Origin: an uncultured Opitutales bacterium
GTDB taxonomy: Bacteria > Verrucomicrobiota > Verrucomicrobiia > Opitutales > Intestinicryptomonadaceae
Reading direction: 5' to 3'
Assembly: GCA_944389885.1 (NCBI GenBank)
Contig: CALXNZ010000001.1
Span: 186,001 to 250,000 of the forward strand
Length of the DNA stretch: 64,000 nucleotides
Each line of letters starts with the position of its first letter. The stretch's first letter is position 1. The notes under the pieces are model-generated. The model was not told the DNA's origin and searched no databases. It saw only the letters and a list, made by a program, of their open reading frames with translations. Below are positions 1,419 to 31,810 of the stretch, piece by piece. The translations under genes were made by a program, and so were the position numbers.

Positions 1419-3575
1419 TCAGTTTTCTTTCCATTCATCTTCGCCCAAGCGTTTTTTCAGTTCAGTAATATCGAGTGACATGCCCAGCAACAAAGTTTCT
1501 CCGTTAGCGGCGTTAAATTTTGTTTTGGTGGTATGCAATTTGTGCCGTTTGCCCTCATGATCCCTGCGTTCTTCGGAAAATTCCAAGGGCTTATCGGAGT
1601 TCAATACAATCGCATCTATCCTCCTTGTTTTCTCGGCGCGACTATCGTCAAACAAATCAAAATCTGTTTTGCCAACAATATCATATCCGGGACATCCCAC
1701 AAATTCCTCAAAATGCCTGTTTATAAAATCAAAACTGAAATTCACATGCGGTTTCTTCGTAAAAACTATAATAGGAATTTTATCCATCACCGCATTTAAC
1801 AATCCGGCATAATCCTTAAGTTCCAACTCATTCTCCTTGTCATGTGTAATATCCTGAATAATCCCCGCAATCTTGCTCTCATACGACGGCGAAATATTTG
1901 AGCGCAAACTCAAGTTATAATAGCGATTTTCTCCTTCAATACCAGAGCGAAACACAAATTCCTCCATGTCCGAAACGCCGTCTATAAGCTTCTGAAATTT
2001 ATTTTCAAACATCGCCAAATCGTCGCGGTGCACGAATTCCGAATAGGGTATAGCGCGCCCGTCTCCACCCTTTGGCCAAATCCTGTAAAATGCCTCCGAA
2101 GCGTCTGTTTCACCGCTTTTTAAATCATAGAAAAAATAGGCCGCGTTCAAGGTCTCTGAAACTGTATCAAGAAGCCTGACATTCCTAATCGCCATTTCCC
2201 GTTCCCTGCACTCTTTTGTTATGTCTTTTATTGATAGAACCGCCCCCACTATATTCCCTTCAGTATCGCGTATGGGTGAAGACGCATCGGAAATATGCCT
2301 GCGCTCGCCATTCGGCAGTATAATATCAATATTTCTATTTAAGGAAATGTCCTTTCCATCGCGCAAAGAATCCCATACGGGAGAAGGCACGCTATTTCCA
2401 TCGACATTGTTGACTACGTTAAGGCAATCCGTGTGGACCTTCCCGACGGCTTCTTCAAACGGCATTCCGCAAAAGCTCTCCGCGGCGGAATTCATATCCA
2501 TAATCCTTCCCATATCATCTACGACTATTATGCCATCGCTCACATTTTTGAGAGAATTTTTCCAACTTTCCTTGTGGTAAGATAGCTCTTTTTTAGCATT
2601 AACAATATCCGTTATGTCTATGCGCGCCCCGACAATAAGCCTATGCCCGTTATTTCCTCTTATTATCCCGCAATTCATGCTTTTCATATAATGTAATTTT
2701 CCATTGCAGTCGGCTATCTCGAAAACTCCATTCACCCCATATTCTTCGCCTATAATTCGCATTTCATCGGATTTTCGCAATTCCTTCGCAGTACAATCTG
2801 AAAATATTTCAAAATCCGTCTTGCCCGCGATTTCTCCCACTTCTTTAGGGACAAAACTGCGCATTCCGGAATTTACAAATACATACTTGAACTCGTCGTC
2901 AGCATCTTTTGTAAATATATGCATGGGCAAGTAATCCAAAACGCGTCTTATGGATTTTACATATTCCTCAAAGCGTTCAGTGATGCCTGCATATTTTTTT
3001 GAAATTTCATTAGTTCCAATATTTTCATTTCTGCGCCAAAAACATGCAACCGTCTTAATTCCAAAGAGGCCTCTTTCAAGCGGTATTATGCGAAGAATTC
3101 CGGCGTTATTCTCAATCGACCGTTCCTCTCCGCTTTTGAATACGCCTTTTATATCGGCAAATGTTCCATCCAATGGGGCCAATAAGCGAAATAATCCTGC
3201 GCTATCGGTTTTCCAACACTCGCCAATCTCACTTCTATAAAACAATATCTTCCCGCCATGCGTGCATACGCATACCCCTCCGGGAAATGAGCTCATAAGG
3301 CGCATACTTCTACGCCCGGCTATTCGATTTGACGTAGTATATAACATTCCTGCTCCGACAATCAGCGCAGACAGTATAAGGAATTCCGAATTTCCCCTTG
3401 AGACATCCGCAAAACCGCTTTCATGCAAACCTCGGGCAAGTCCGATAGAACCTTCTGCCAAAATTAGATTATAAGTGGCTACGCCTAAATATCCCGGCTC
3501 CGCCGCGGTGCCGTTTAATATCGTAGAAAATCCCGGCCCAAATATAAATGCAGGTAATATAAAATATTTTAACAT
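1419..3575 (-). CDS. Membrane-anchored multi-PAS sensor protein without visible output domain
   Basis: This 718-aa protein has an N-terminal hydrophobic segment (about residues 1-25), a second one near 65-82 (FLILSALIVGAGMLY), and then a run of PAS-like domains. I can place PAS units at about 207-335, 345-455, 470-580 and 595-710. Two of them share an alternating pattern, IAGKTDFEIFSDC and IVGKTDFDLFDDS, typical of PAS domains with a 'GKTDFD' helix. Each unit ends in a C-terminal strand and linker such as GARIDITDI or GMSLDITEL. After the last unit the protein stops (KRLGEDEWKEN). No histidine kinase, GGDEF, EAL or methyl-accepting domain is present. It may act by protein-protein contact or be a sensor whose output module was lost. 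The AT-rich segment just upstream probably holds its promoter. Confidence 0.75.
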   Translation of the reverse strand: MLKYFILPAFIFGPGFSTILNGTAAEPGYLGVATYNLILAEGSIGLARGLHESGFADVSRGNSEFLILSALIVGAGMLYTTSNRIAGRRSMRLMSSFPGGVCVCTHGGKILFYRSEIGECWKTDSAGLFRLLAPLDGTFADIKGVFKSGEERSIENNAGILRIIPLERGLFGIKTVACFWRRNENIGTNEISKKYAGITERFEEYVKSIRRVLDYLPMHIFTKDADDEFKYVFVNSGMRSFVPKEVGEIAGKTDFEIFSDCTAKELRKSDEMRIIGEEYGVNGVFEIADCNGKLHYMKSMNCGIIRGNNGHRLIVGARIDITDIVNAKKELSYHKESWKNSLKNVSDGIIVVDDMGRIMDMNSAAESFCGMPFEEAVGKVHTDCLNVVNNVDGNSVPSPVWDSLRDGKDISLNRNIDIILPNGERRHISDASSPIRDTEGNIVGAVLSIKDITKECREREMAIRNVRLLDTVSETLNAAYFFYDLKSGETDASEAFYRIWPKGGDGRAIPYSEFVHRDDLAMFENKFQKLIDGVSDMEEFVFRSGIEGENRYYNLSLRSNISPSYESKIAGIIQDITHDKENELELKDYAGLLNAVMDKIPIIVFTKKPHVNFSFDFINRHFEEFVGCPGYDIVGKTDFDLFDDSRAEKTRRIDAIVLNSDKPLEFSEERRDHEGKRHKLHTTKTKFNAANGETLLLGMSLDITELKKRLGEDEWKEN

Positions 3576-3907
3576 AAAAAATATAAATTTAAATCTAATT
3601 ATAAATTTATAAAATTATACTATTATGTCGAGAATTTTAATTAGATTAAAAATATTTTATATAATATTTGAAAACTATAAAATACTTCCCTGCGGCCAAA
3701 AAAAGCACCGCAAAGCCCACCAAGTCGATTCCATGCGTTTTAGTTGCAGATTGTAAAAGTTCCCGCCCTGGCATACTGCAACAAATCTCTCAATTATAAG
3801 ATTATCGAGCGGGCGAACTTTCACAAAGAATGGGAAATTTTCCACAAAATAAGTTCGCGCAATTTGTTTGCGGGAATCTTATAAAGGGCTTTGCGCAAAA
3901 TAAAAAG
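3576..3907. other. 332-bp gene-free interval between clpX and the PAS gene
   Basis: No convincing coding frame is present. Positions 3576-3697 are very AT-rich and likely contain the promoter of the PAS gene on the minus strand. Positions 3698-3895 contain the candidate structured RNA described separately. Confidence 0.7.
3698..3895 (-). ncRNA. Candidate structured RNA downstream of clpX
   Basis: Several helices can be drawn by eye without crossing. The closing helix is a perfect 10-bp inverted repeat (3709-3718 with 3886-3895). Inside it are a 7-bp hairpin stem (3743-3749 with 3776-3782) and an arm made of 3794-3803 with 3875-3884 (10 bp), 3811-3820 with 3851-3860 (9 of 10), and a palindrome at 3831-3844. 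On the minus strand the closing helix is followed after four bases by U7 (3704-3698), as at an intrinsic terminator. An alternative pairing of 3751-3768 with 3811-3826 competes with the arm. It could be an independent small RNA (about 190 nt; 6S RNA is one candidate by size) or a clpX 3' UTR element. The identity is not recognised. Confidence 0.42.
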
Positions 3908-5143
3908 CTATTTCACAAAAGAGGAATCTATCTTAAGCGTCTTGCATGACGGATCGTCGGGAAGTTTATACATCACATCCAACATTATAGACTCCATTAT
4001 GGAGCGCAAAGCCCTTGCCCCGGTGCCAAGCGCAATCGCCTTTTCCGCAACGGCCTCGACCGCAGAATTGTCGAATTCAAGTTTAACTCCGTCCAAGGCG
4101 AAAAGTTTGGAATACTGGCGCACTAATGAATTTTTTGTCTTTGTGAGTATCCGAACTAAATCGTCCTTGCCGAGTTCTTCGAGGGTCGAAACCACGGGAA
4201 GGCGGCCTATAAATTCAGGAATAAACCCGAACTGAACTAAATCTTCGGGTTGAACCTTTGAAAGAAGGGCGGATTTTTCTGACGAAGTTTTGTCAAAATT
4301 GGACGAGAATCCCAAAACCTTTTCCTCGGAGCGCCGCGCTATTATCTTATCGAGTCCAACAAAAGCCCCGCCGCAAATAAAAAGTATATTGCGGGTATCC
4401 ACCCTTATATATTCCTGATCGGGATGCTTTCTGCCCCCCTTCGGAGGAATATTGCATACAGAACCCTCTAAAATCTTCAACAAAGCCTGCTGAACGCCTT
4501 CTCCGCCGACATCCCTGGTTATCGATACGTTCTCCGTACGCCGCCCTATCTTATCAATTTCGTCTATGTATATTATTCCGCACTGAGCCCGCTGAACGTC
4601 GAAATCGGCGGCTCTGAGCAAATTGAGGACAAGATTTTCAACGTCCTCGCCCACATATCCAGCTTCTGTGACGGTCGTAGCGTCTCCAATCGCGAACGGA
4701 ACGTTTAACATACGCGCCAAAGTTCTCGCCAAATAAGTTTTTCCGCTTCCGGTGGGGCCTATTAACAAAATATTGCTCTTTTCTATCTCCACATCTGCGC
4801 AATCCGGATCAACGGTCAAATCCTCGCCGGCCGCCCTTGCAAATTCTGCCTTTATGCGCTTGTAATGGTTGTAAACGGCCACGCTCAACACTTTTTTGGC
4901 GCGCTCCTGCCCCACAACGTACTGGTCAAGCCCGGCTTTTAATTGCGATGGCGTCTTGAGTTCAAAATCCATCAAGTTTCGGACCCGTTCCATCTCGTCA
5001 TGTTTTGCGCGCAATTCAAAGGCGTTGTTGGCCGCTTGGGCGCAATCGGCGCAAATCCTTGCTCCGCCTATTCCGCTCAAAAGCCCGCCCGCTTCGGACG
5101 CGCTTCTGCCGCAAAAACTGCACGAGTTTTTTTCGGATCCCAT
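3908..5143 (-). CDS. clpX: ATP-dependent protease ATP-binding subunit ClpX
   Basis: This 411-aa AAA+ unfoldase has the usual ClpX layout. The N-terminal zinc-binding domain has cysteines C8, C11, C31 and C34. The Walker A motif GPTGSGKT lies at residues 129-136, and Walker B is [10 protein letters not shown] with the following [20 protein letters not shown] region typical of ClpX. The pore-loop region ([10 protein letters not shown]) and the [10 protein letters not shown] segment, where the ClpP-contacting IGF-type loop is expected, are also present. It unfolds tagged substrates and feeds them to ClpP in the cytoplasm. It follows clpP by 3 bp in the order tig-clpP-clpX, so the three are probably co-transcribed. 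Confidence 0.97.
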
Positions 5144-27889: not shown

Positions 27890-28042
27890 AACCCATAATT
27901 ATTTGAAAGGCTATGGAGATTTTTTATATATTGCAAGAAAAGCGATTGAAAAATTAGCGCAACCCAAACGAAAAGATAATCATTTGACTGCAGTAAAAAT
28001 AAAACTGTTGCGATTGTCGTCCATATGGGGAATACTAAGGAT

Positions 28043-28921
28043 ATGAACTATTTTCTCATAGACGGTTTTAATATGGCATTCAGATGTTTTTATGCCATGC
28101 CAGATCTGACGCGTTCCGACGGTTTCCCAACGGGAGCCCTACACGCGTTTTTCGCATCTCTTTTAAAGCTTGGATCCATAGACGCCCCGCACGCGACCTG
28201 TGTATTCTTCGATTCCGGAGGTTCAATTAGGCACCGCAAACTCCTCCCCACATACAAAGCCAATCGCGCCCAAGCCCCTGAGACGTTCAAAAAGCAAATC
28301 GAACCGATGAAAAGTTTGTGTTCGCTTCTGGGATTCGACGTATTCGGGCGCGAAGGAATAGAAGCCGACGACCTTCTTGCAAGCCTTGCCGTAAAACTCA
28401 AAAATTCCGGACATTCCGTGACGATAGTAAGCGCCGATAAAGATTTCGCCCAATTAGTATCCCCAAACATGCGCCAGCTGCTACCTCCCAATTCGCGCCT
28501 AAAGGAGTGGTCGGCTCTTGACACGGTGGGTGTTAGAATGAAATTCGGGGTGTCCCCCTCGCAAATTCCGGATTTCTTAGCTCTGATGGGAGACTCCGCC
28601 GACAACATTCCGGGCCTTGAAGGCATAGGCCCTAAAACCGCCGCGAAATGGCTTAAGGAATACGGAGACCTTCAGGGGATAATAAGGCGCTACGATTGGC
28701 TCAAGCCTGAAAAGTTCAGAACTATCGTACGGGATTCGCAAGCTATGCTGGCCCGCAATCTCGAACTTGTCAGACTCGATACAAAACTCGATATTGAAGC
28801 TCCGCAGAATAGGAATCCGGATTTTGACGGCATAATAAAATTTCTCGAGGATATGGAGATGAAGAAAGCCCTGACCGGATTGCGCAAATTTGCAAAGGAC
28901 CAGCATGGAGTCCTTATTTAG
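28043..28921 (+). CDS. Stand-alone 5'-3' exonuclease (Pol I N-terminal domain type)
   Basis: This 292-aa protein starts at MNYFLIDGFNMAFRCFYAMP, preceded closely by AAGG; a 6-residue upstream start (28025) is less likely. FEN/Pol I exonuclease motifs are visible: FLIDGFN (metal aspartate), CVFFDSGGSIRHRKLLPTYK with arginines and lysines of the helical arch, GIEADDLLASLA and VSADKDFAQLV (acidic clusters). The helix-hairpin-helix region reads LMGDSADNIPGLEGIGPKTAAKWL. No polymerase domain follows. It probably removes RNA primers or flaps, either as a partner or paralogue of Pol I or like the separate ExoIX/YpcP proteins. It overlaps the convergent Sel1 gene by 3 bp at the stops. Confidence 0.9.
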   Translation: MNYFLIDGFNMAFRCFYAMPDLTRSDGFPTGALHAFFASLLKLGSIDAPHATCVFFDSGGSIRHRKLLPTYKANRAQAPETFKKQIEPMKSLCSLLGFDVFGREGIEADDLLASLAVKLKNSGHSVTIVSADKDFAQLVSPNMRQLLPPNSRLKEWSALDTVGVRMKFGVSPSQIPDFLALMGDSADNIPGLEGIGPKTAAKWLKEYGDLQGIIRRYDWLKPEKFRTIVRDSQAMLARNLELVRLDTKLDIEAPQNRNPDFDGIIKFLEDMEMKKALTGLRKFAKDQHGVLI

Positions 28922-30405
28922 CGGCCTATGCGCATGAGGGCTTTCTTGGCTTCCTCATTCCCGGCTTTTGCCGCTTTTCTCATAAGAGCTACTCCTTTAA
29001 ACTCGTCCCGCCGCACGCCGATTCCGTTATAGTAGCAGGCGCCGAGATTGCCCATTGCCTGAGCATCTCCGGCATCGGAAGCCTTTGACAGCCACTTTAT
29101 AGCCTCCGCGATATTCTCCGCTGTTCCAACCCCGTTTACAAGACATGTACCGAGATTGCTTTGGGCGTTGACATCTCCTGCCTCGGCAGCCTTGCGCAGC
29201 CATTTTATGGCATCGGAGGCGTCCTTGTTGGCGCCTATTCCCTCAAGATAGCAATAACCCAATGAAGACGCGGCGTTTATATCCCCTTGAAAGGCCGCCC
29301 TCCTATACCATTTTACGGCTTCAAAGGGATTCTCCTCTACTCCTATTCCGTTTAGATAACAATCCCCCAAATTATTCTGCGCTATTGCATAGCCTTGTTT
29401 CGCGGATTTCTCATACCAGTGCATTGCCAAAGCGTTGTTCTGCTCAACACCAAGTCCGTTCATGTGGCATACGGCCAAATTATTTTGGGCTTCCGCATTT
29501 CCCTGCTCCGCAGCCGCTTTAAGCCATCTGGCCCCGGCCACCGCATCAGGGGAAACTCCCAAGCCTTGCAAATACGCCATGCCAAGCATCAATTGAGACG
29601 CAGCGTATCCGTTCATCGCCGACTTCTCATACCAGCCAAGCGCGGCGAAATCGTCAACTTCAACTCCTATTCCCTTAGAATACGCCACTGCAAGGTTGTT
29701 TTGCCCCACTGCGCTTCCGCTATCCGCGGCCTCGCGGAAAAGCTTTACAGCCATGGCCTCGTCTTTTTTTTCCACTCCTTTTCCCTCAAGCCATGCCCTT
29801 CCCAACGACACCTTCGCCCGAAGAGACCCGTCAGAAGCGGCCTTTTTAAAGAGTTCTACGGCTTTGCGGGGATTCAGCTCCACTCCCAATCCCTTGTAAT
29901 AGCAAACTCCGAGAGCGTTCATGGCTTCAGGAATACCGGCGGCCGCAGCGCGCCGCAACATGGACGCCGCAGCGGGCTCGTCCTGAACTGCGCCCCTTCC
30001 CTCGAGTATGCAATACGCAAGCCCGCACTGCCCGTAGCGGTTTCCGGACATCGCGGACTTTGAAAACAGCATCGCGGCTTCGGAGTAGTCGCGGCCGTCA
30101 ACTCCCACTCCGCGATAATACAAAACCCCAAGCATGAATTCGGCCGCAGAGTTTCCTTTTTTCGCCTCAGCCCTCAGTGTATCCAATTTGAATTTCTCCA
30201 CTTCTGCATATGCAGAGGAATCAAAATCCATGAATGCTGAAAAATATTTCTGGGCTTTTTCAAAATTCCCGCCTTCCATTTCCGCAGGAGAGCCTTCGGT
30301 TTGAGTCCCGAAACTTTCATAGTGAAAAGCAGAAAAACATACGCAAAAGAATGCGAATACCAAAATGCGACTCCCCCTCCATAAATGGCGGGAAAAAAGA
30401 CGCAT
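28918..30405 (-). CDS. Sel1-repeat (SLR) protein with signal sequence
   Basis: Starting at MRLFSRHLWRGSRILVFAFF, the product has 495 residues and an N-terminal signal or anchor. The longer frame to 30528 would overlap the trpB end and lacks similarity. After a linker of about 70 residues come 11 consecutive Sel1-like repeats of 36-37 residues. They follow the pattern A...LG.cY..GiGv..d...A..W..kAA..G, for example AEAQNNLAVCHMNGLGVEQN and AIAQNNLGDCYLNGIGVEEN. The repeats form a solenoid used for protein-protein contacts, in the periplasm if the signal is cleaved. The partner is unknown. It follows trpB on the same strand. Confidence 0.88.
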   Translation of the reverse strand: MRLFSRHLWRGSRILVFAFFCVCFSAFHYESFGTQTEGSPAEMEGGNFEKAQKYFSAFMDFDSSAYAEVEKFKLDTLRAEAKKGNSAAEFMLGVLYYRGVGVDGRDYSEAAMLFSKSAMSGNRYGQCGLAYCILEGRGAVQDEPAAASMLRRAAAAGIPEAMNALGVCYYKGLGVELNPRKAVELFKKAASDGSLRAKVSLGRAWLEGKGVEKKDEAMAVKLFREAADSGSAVGQNNLAVAYSKGIGVEVDDFAALGWYEKSAMNGYAASQLMLGMAYLQGLGVSPDAVAGARWLKAAAEQGNAEAQNNLAVCHMNGLGVEQNNALAMHWYEKSAKQGYAIAQNNLGDCYLNGIGVEENPFEAVKWYRRAAFQGDINAASSLGYCYLEGIGANKDASDAIKWLRKAAEAGDVNAQSNLGTCLVNGVGTAENIAEAIKWLSKASDAGDAQAMGNLGACYYNGIGVRRDEFKGVALMRKAAKAGNEEAKKALMRIGR

Positions 30406-30451
30406 ATTTTCAATATTGTTCAAAACTTGCCGCAGAAGGAATTTTGTCGAA

Positions 30452-31810
30452 TTATAGAGACGGCAACCCGGAGAGAGCCATTGCAATCTCTTCTTCCGGA
30501 TAATCGTAGTTTTTAAGCGAGCCGGCAAAATACTCTATGTACGCCGCCATATCCATGTGTCCATGGCCCGATAGATTGAAGAGTATTGCCCGAGATTCTC
30601 CAGATTCCTTACATTTGCGAGCCTCGTCCATAGCCGCGGAAATCGCGTGCGACGACTCCGGAGCGGGCGTTATGCCTTCGGCGCGCGCAAATATTACGGC
30701 GTCCCTAAACACGTCGAGTTGCTGCACTGTCCGCGCCGACATGAGTCCTTGGCGGGCTACATTGCTTATTTGCGGAGCCATTCCGTGGTAGCGCAATCCC
30801 CCCGCGTGGACCGCCGGAGGTATGAAAAAACTTCCGAGCGTATACATTTTCATAAGCGGAGTCATTTTCGCGACGTCCCCAAAGTCGTATGCGTATTTTC
30901 CCTTTGTAAGACTCGGACAAGCAGCCGGCTCTACACCGAGAATTTCCACATCTTTTCCGCCCCTCAATTTTTCTCCGAGGAACGGGAAAGCCATACCCGC
31001 AAAATTAGAGCCGCCTCCGCATGCGCCTATGACGATGTCTGGATAATCGTCGGCCAGCTCAAATTGTTTAATTGCTTCCTCGCCTATAACCGTCTGATGA
31101 AGCAATACATGGTTTAAAACCGACCCGAGGCAATACTTTGTATCCTTTCCTTTTAACACCTCTTCTATCGCCTCAGAAATCGCTATGCCCAAGGACCCCC
31201 TGCAATTTGGATCCTCCGCAAGCACAGCCCTCCCGGCTTCTGTATAAGGGCTGGGAGAGGGAATTACCGTCCCCCCGAACAGCTCCATCATAGCCTTGCG
31301 GTAGGGTTTTTGGTCGTATGAGCAGCGCACCATGTAAACCTTGCATTCTATTCCAAAAATAGAGCACGCTTGCGAGAGCGCCGAGCCCCATTGTCCGGCT
31401 CCAGTTTCGGTGGTGACTTTTTTAGTGCCCTGCCGCTTGTTTTCAAAGGCCTGGGCCACCGCGCTATTGGTTTTATGAGAACCCGACGGGCTCACACCCT
31501 CATACTTAAAATAAATTCTGGCAGGAGTATCCAATACTTTTTCGAGCCTGCGGGCCCTAAACAATGGCGAAGGGCGCCAATTCCGCATGATGTCTCGAAC
31601 GGGTTTGGGGATTTCCACATAACGTTCATGAGTGGTTTCCTGCTCTATGGCCCCTTTTGAGAATATGCACTCGAGCTTGGAAATATCCATAGGCTTTCCG
31701 GTCGAAGGATCCACGGGAGGCGGAGTTTTTTCCTTTAAATCCGCCTCAATGTTGTACCAATGGGTGGGAATTTTTTCTTCGTCCAATATGTATTTGACTC
31801 TGTCTGACAT
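30452..31810 (-). CDS. trpB: TrpB2-type tryptophan synthase beta chain-like enzyme
   Basis: This 452-aa PLP enzyme belongs to the TrpB2 branch. It is longer than canonical TrpB and has the N-terminal region IPTHWYNIEADLKEKTPPPV. The PLP lysine is in GVSPSGSHKTNSAVAQAF, and the phosphate-binding loop is IGACGGGSNFAGMAFP. Other family segments are TETGAGQWGSALSQA and APESSHAISAAMDEA. It makes tryptophan from indole and serine. No trpA or other trp gene is adjacent, which is common for TrpB2. It lies between a small lipoprotein gene and the Sel1 gene on the same strand. Confidence 0.92.
   Translation of the reverse strand: MSDRVKYILDEEKIPTHWYNIEADLKEKTPPPVDPSTGKPMDISKLECIFSKGAIEQETTHERYVEIPKPVRDIMRNWRPSPLFRARRLEKVLDTPARIYFKYEGVSPSGSHKTNSAVAQAFENKRQGTKKVTTETGAGQWGSALSQACSIFGIECKVYMVRCSYDQKPYRKAMMELFGGTVIPSPSPYTEAGRAVLAEDPNCRGSLGIAISEAIEEVLKGKDTKYCLGSVLNHVLLHQTVIGEEAIKQFELADDYPDIVIGACGGGSNFAGMAFPFLGEKLRGGKDVEILGVEPAACPSLTKGKYAYDFGDVAKMTPLMKMYTLGSFFIPPAVHAGGLRYHGMAPQISNVARQGLMSARTVQQLDVFRDAVIFARAEGITPAPESSHAISAAMDEARKCKESGESRAILFNLSGHGHMDMAAYIEYFAGSLKNYDYPEEEIAMALSGLPSL

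Follow-up and report, generated by a model that had tools for sequence, protein, structure and literature searches.

A structured 3' untranslated region with a putative intrinsic terminator downstream of clpX in an Opitutales genome, and a possible competing arm in the clpX codons

On the minus strand of the window (the whole stretch of 64,000 nt analysed here), the interval that follows clpX can be read, with a confidence somewhat above even, as a structured 3' untranslated region (3' UTR) that ends in the intrinsic terminator of a tig-clpP-clpX transcript. The sequence elements, their strand and their computed fold are described below, and from these we infer that the interval is transcribed and that transcription ends at its far side. 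A further observation, new here and derived from modeled folds, is that arm 2 of this 3' UTR has a perfect 13-nt partner within clpX, in the codons for the motif ARALR (4004-4016), which is longer than the 10-bp pairing with arm 3 that closes the structured domain. We regard the competition by a coding arm as a possible lead, not as a demonstrated switch, given that it comes from one genome and from thermodynamic folding. On the minus strand of the genome (2.2 Mb in 27 contigs), consecutive genes encode threonylcarbamoyladenylate synthase, trigger factor (tig), ClpP and ClpX, followed by the interval and by a gene for a protein with PAS domains (Table 1); no output domain was found in this 718-aa protein with Pfam or NCBIfam.

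Table 1. Features of the interval downstream of clpX and of the adjoining genes (window coordinates)
Feature	Position	Strand	Description
clpX	3908..5143	(-)	411 aa; NCBIfam clpX equivalog, above cut-off
Arm 1	4004..4016	(-)	clpX codons for A-R-A-L-R, RNA AAGGGCUUUGCGC; perfect 13-nt complement of arm 2
Arm 2	3884..3896	(-)	first arm of the 3' UTR, RNA GCGCAAAGCCCUU; partner is arm 1 or arm 3
Long imperfect hairpin ('sixth pairing' of the initial annotation)	3751..3826	(-)	76 nt
Inner stem, 3' side	3727..3732	(-)	RNA GGAAUC; partner 3873-3878
Arm 3	3709..3718	(-)	3' arm of the closing stem, RNA GGGCUUUGCG
U7 tract	3698..3704	(-)	4 nt (GUGC) past arm 3; A7 on the plus strand
PAS-domain gene, downstream of clpX	1419..3575	(-)	718 aa, PAS domains

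The closing stem (3709-3718/3886-3895) is a perfect 10-bp helix with 167 nt between its arms, the first of which lies 11-12 nt from the clpX stop codon. The initial annotation had placed a U7 tract after the closing helix on the minus strand, and this tract is indeed present at 3698-3704; a U tract follows the closing stem in the clpX direction only. Inverted repeats of 10 nt are by themselves common, with 20 in the window; a perfect one followed by T6 (at least 4 G/C in the repeat, a spacer of 20-200, T6 within 6 nt) occurs once in the 64 kb, and one of 30 shuffles has one as well. In its features, the interval is akin to intrinsic (Rho-independent) terminators and structured 3' UTRs, in that a stable 10-bp stem lies past a stop codon, with U7 4 nt farther on. 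It differs from classical short-loop terminators in that 167 nt, themselves folded, lie between the arms. A 10-bp stem around 167 nt would be unusual for an intrinsic terminator, and its folding at U7 may be too slow. Long 3' UTRs with terminators distant from the stop codon are known (PMC7821165). A standard scan of 3300-4300 returned no short terminators on either strand, and the search for sigma-70-like promoters ahead of 3895 on the minus strand was negative as well. A loose hairpin script pointed, about 30 nt past the clpX stop codon, to a small hairpin whose T-rich tail is weak, yet this script does not discriminate, because it flagged all 12 loci.

On the terminator reading, transcription would continue past the clpX stop codon into the interval, and the stable 76-nt hairpin at 3751-3826 would form in the nascent transcript. 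Pairing of arm 3709-3718 with 3886-3895 would then cause the transcript to end at U7 (3698-3704), such that the 'loop' of the terminator would be a folded domain of 167 nt; the hairpins may protect the 3' end. If the interval is no more than a structured 3' UTR and its terminator, it would represent an ordinary though elaborate transcript end.

The minus strand of the interval is predicted to fold with -62.5 kcal/mol (z -3.59), and none of 200 shuffles was as low. Evaluated against 30 of its own shuffles, its z of -3.85 is below that of all 194 windows sampled across the stretch (one every 330 nt, one strand; mean -0.24, sd 1.02); in raw energy, 31 of these 194 are as low as the interval. On the plus strand the fold is almost as strong (z -3.57; 1 of 200 shuffles as low), as palindromic sequence would lead one to expect, so that the fold alone cannot pick the strand, which is instead picked by the U tract. 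A strong fold after clpX is also not rare in itself, since the unrelated stretches that follow clpX in relatives have z below -3 in 2 of 11 cases. The five inverted repeats described in the initial annotation and its competing pairing are all present: the repeat finder lists 3709-3718/3886-3895 (10 nt), 3794-3803/3875-3884 (10 nt) and the competing pairing of 3751-3769 with 3808-3826, and the 7-nt and 9/10 repeats, like the palindrome at about 3831-3845, can be seen by eye in the sequence. As a set, however, the five do not make up the favoured fold, because enforcing the five helices jointly yields -33.9 kcal/mol as opposed to -62.6 kcal/mol for the best fold, i.e. about 29 kcal/mol worse. 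Three elements are retained in the best fold: the closing stem has a pair probability of 0.89-1.0, the inner stem GGAAUC/GAUUCC reaches about 0.88 when the clpX tail is left out of the transcript, and the hairpin 3751-3826 shows a mean pairing probability of about 0.9 in every folded state that contains the whole hairpin. Probabilities of the other helices are near zero, with the exception of the palindrome, for which 3 of 5 tested pairs reach about 0.6; upon folding of ten prefixes, the helix 3794-3803/3875-3884 appeared only in the 120-nt prefix. The additional, 'sixth' pairing does exist and dominates the fold. With this pairing dominant and the other helices near zero, no balanced switch is predicted inside the interval. 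The notion of a switch-like competition thus does not hold within the interval, but it survives in another form, as the predicted folds disclose a competitor of the terminator stem inside clpX.

Arm 2 has two possible partners, arm 1 (13 bp) and arm 3 (10 bp plus U7), of which it can take only one at a time, and translation might decide on termination via this choice. We consider such a gate fairly unlikely. Ribosomes covering arm 1 would leave arm 2 free, the terminator would form and the transcript would end; upon poor translation of clpX, arm 1 would capture arm 2, with read-through into the PAS gene as the consequence. Stated in full, namely that translation of the last ~100 nt of clpX sets termination versus PAS read-through, with the ARALR codons doubling as antiterminator, the proposal appears unlikely. 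Folding predictions speak for the gate. The closing stem (P1) forms with a probability of 0.95-0.99 in RNA without arm 1, drops to 0.004-0.15 when arm 1 is present and free (arm 1:arm 2 then being paired at 0.80-0.97), and is back at 0.88-0.89 when arm 1 is masked; it is predicted to be absent whenever at least 108 nt of upstream RNA (to 4016) are present and unoccupied, which speaks against the terminator reading. Masking was carried out with 15 tiles of 19 nt: P1 was restored solely by the two that overlap arm 1 (0.92 and 0.95) and remained at 0.001-0.098 with the other 13. In favour of the gate, too, the window contains a single three-arm arrangement (a 10-nt sequence, k=10, flanked on either side by its complement at up to 300 nt), and none of 60 shuffles contains one, although the arrangement was noticed post hoc. 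The clpX complement is the longest among the 49 ORFs of the window when the last 250 nt of each ORF are compared with the 60 nt after it (the next has 11 nt). If the clpX tail is recoded with random synonymous codons (peptide kept, codon usage of the window), 39 of 20,000 tails reach 13 nt, again a post hoc comparison.

What speaks against the gate, apart from its post hoc origin, is that arm 1 codes for a motif conserved in ClpX and its sequence is therefore largely set by the protein. This constraint on the ARALR motif aids the match between arms 1 and 2, and 247 of the 20,000 synonymous tails reach 10 nt or more. Moreover, none of the 11 orthologous clpX genes in the genus has the arrangement, the clpX tails of these relatives containing no match longer than 9 nt. 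With a ribosome footprint over the stop codon, neither pairing is predicted to dominate (arm 1:arm 2 about 0.47, P1 0.17-0.18), so that trailing ribosomes would have to do the work; there is also no known reason for coupling clpX to the PAS gene. Ribosomes can repress nearby terminators by blocking the hairpin or shift the mRNA to an antitermination form (PMC4824070), which makes a gate that senses translation at the end of clpX possible. Transcription attenuators with an antiterminator pairing under ribosome control likewise comprise three arms, of which one is shared, and mutually exclusive pairings. In contrast to leader-peptide attenuators, the competing arm here is situated toward the 3' end of a complete housekeeping gene, and the mutually exclusive pairings of arm 2 come from predicted folds. 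The literature searched, with a coverage mostly outside subscription journals, yielded no switch in a clpX 3' UTR. Should the gate exist, the logic of attenuation would operate where a gene for a housekeeping protease ends and would link translation of that gene to expression of its downstream neighbour; a search of genomes for other coding segments in competition with their own terminators would then be worthwhile.

Searches for relatives gave little beyond the interval itself. The lack of a homologue speaks against the terminator reading. A blastn search of 14 genus genomes with 198 nt recovered self only; a search of 19 family genomes with 236 nt recovered self plus matches of 17-34 nt (E 0.01-0.1) in 10 of the 18 others, which are chance matches. 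A covariance model built from the single sequence scored 245 bits on self and nothing else above 16.2 bits in the 19 family genomes. Five further matches (13.4-16.2 bits, in 4 genomes) were rejected as homologues on inspection, being simple hairpins or poor alignments. One genome, G004, gave zero candidates in any homologue search and is counted as unexamined among the 18 other family genomes. ClpX is found in 11 of the 13 other genus genomes with 70-76% identity, G008 having just a relative of 42% and G004 no candidate. We rejected a conserved RNA adjoining clpX, as the stretches downstream of the 11 clpX orthologues are unlike the interval and the neighbouring genes differ. In at least 7 of these 11 relatives (L006-L012, read by eye), the clpX stop codon is followed within about 80 nt by an ordinary GC hairpin with a T run. 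In the closest relative (L004, G007:C110), about 490 nt separate clpX from the next listed ORF, which is on the other strand, and this stretch contains repeated motifs (GGAGACGTTCC, GGAAACGTTCC) and is unlike the interval. Among the matches listed from a search of contigs, the best ClpX is that of a Cephaloticoccus MAG with 61% identity, which would point to an Opitutales-like member of the Verrucomicrobiota, and the listed ClpX relatives are all distant; TGAR-motif codons were read, where found, from at least 80 ClpX loci of that search.

Of the identities offered in the initial annotation, a 6S-like RNA was suggested by size. The interval does share length and a closing stem with 6S RNA (RF00013), yet its predicted fold has a large one-sided 5' loop with small hairpins of its own. 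RF00013 matched neither the interval (E up to 10) nor a stretch of 12 kb (E up to 5), and the sole 6S match in the genome (70.6 bits to RF00013) is on the minus strand of another contig (C18:7507-7694; L001:1501-1688). Without an Rfam match and with a separate 6S gene, the 6S-like reading is unsupported, and we have rejected it. The Rfam comparison proposed at the outset returned no family over threshold in the interval; a permissive search with a 391-nt stretch gave chance-level scores only. A trans-acting small RNA of about 190 nt, either independent or processed, whose source would be the clpX 3' UTR or a promoter of its own, is quite unlikely in our estimate. Its size, strong fold, U7 end and closing stem would be in line with many small RNAs, but there is no sigma-70 promoter consensus upstream on the minus strand, no Rfam match, a single copy in its own genome, and no relative by blastn or covariance model in the 18 other family genomes (G004 gave no candidates). 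The proposal of a structured RNA is supported for the clpX 3' UTR, one of the options initially named; an independent RNA is not supported, with no sigma-70-like promoter upstream on the minus strand and a distance of 11 nt between the stop codon and the first arm.

Two other readings appear highly improbable. A leader or riboswitch of the PAS gene would be on the same strand as that gene, with a terminator-like end upstream, and is to this extent weakly possible; on the other hand, the gene starts 122 nt past U7, an AT-rich stretch with minus-strand promoter-like matches of its own lies between, no riboswitch family matched, and the PAS protein has weak matches (28-32% identity) in just 1 of the 18 other family genomes. 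The idea that the loop of an old clpX terminator took up a small mobile or repeat element draws on the resemblance of the closing arms to the ordinary terminator stems of relatives; in G017, for instance, model R1 matches what is a plain hairpin (AGCAAAGCCC/GGGCUUUGCU). It is countered by the lack of a second copy in the genome (E up to 1) and of copies in phages or plasmids, for which reason we rejected a repeat element, and by the fact that no target-site duplication was seen at the inner edges of the arms. Most simply, the interval would be the 3' UTR of the clpX transcript with its terminator, our preferred reading.

Two minor observations concern other parts of the window. Between the interval and the PAS gene, the sequence at 3540-3690 is very AT-rich, shows promoter-like matches on both strands and includes a perfect 14-nt inverted repeat (3557-3570/3649-3662). 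Farther away, the convergent ORFs 28025-28921 and 28918-30528 adjoin at their ends, and an 11-nt inverted repeat (AAGAAAGCCCT/AGGGCTTTCTT; 28863-28948) that spans both stop codons is possibly a two-way terminator.
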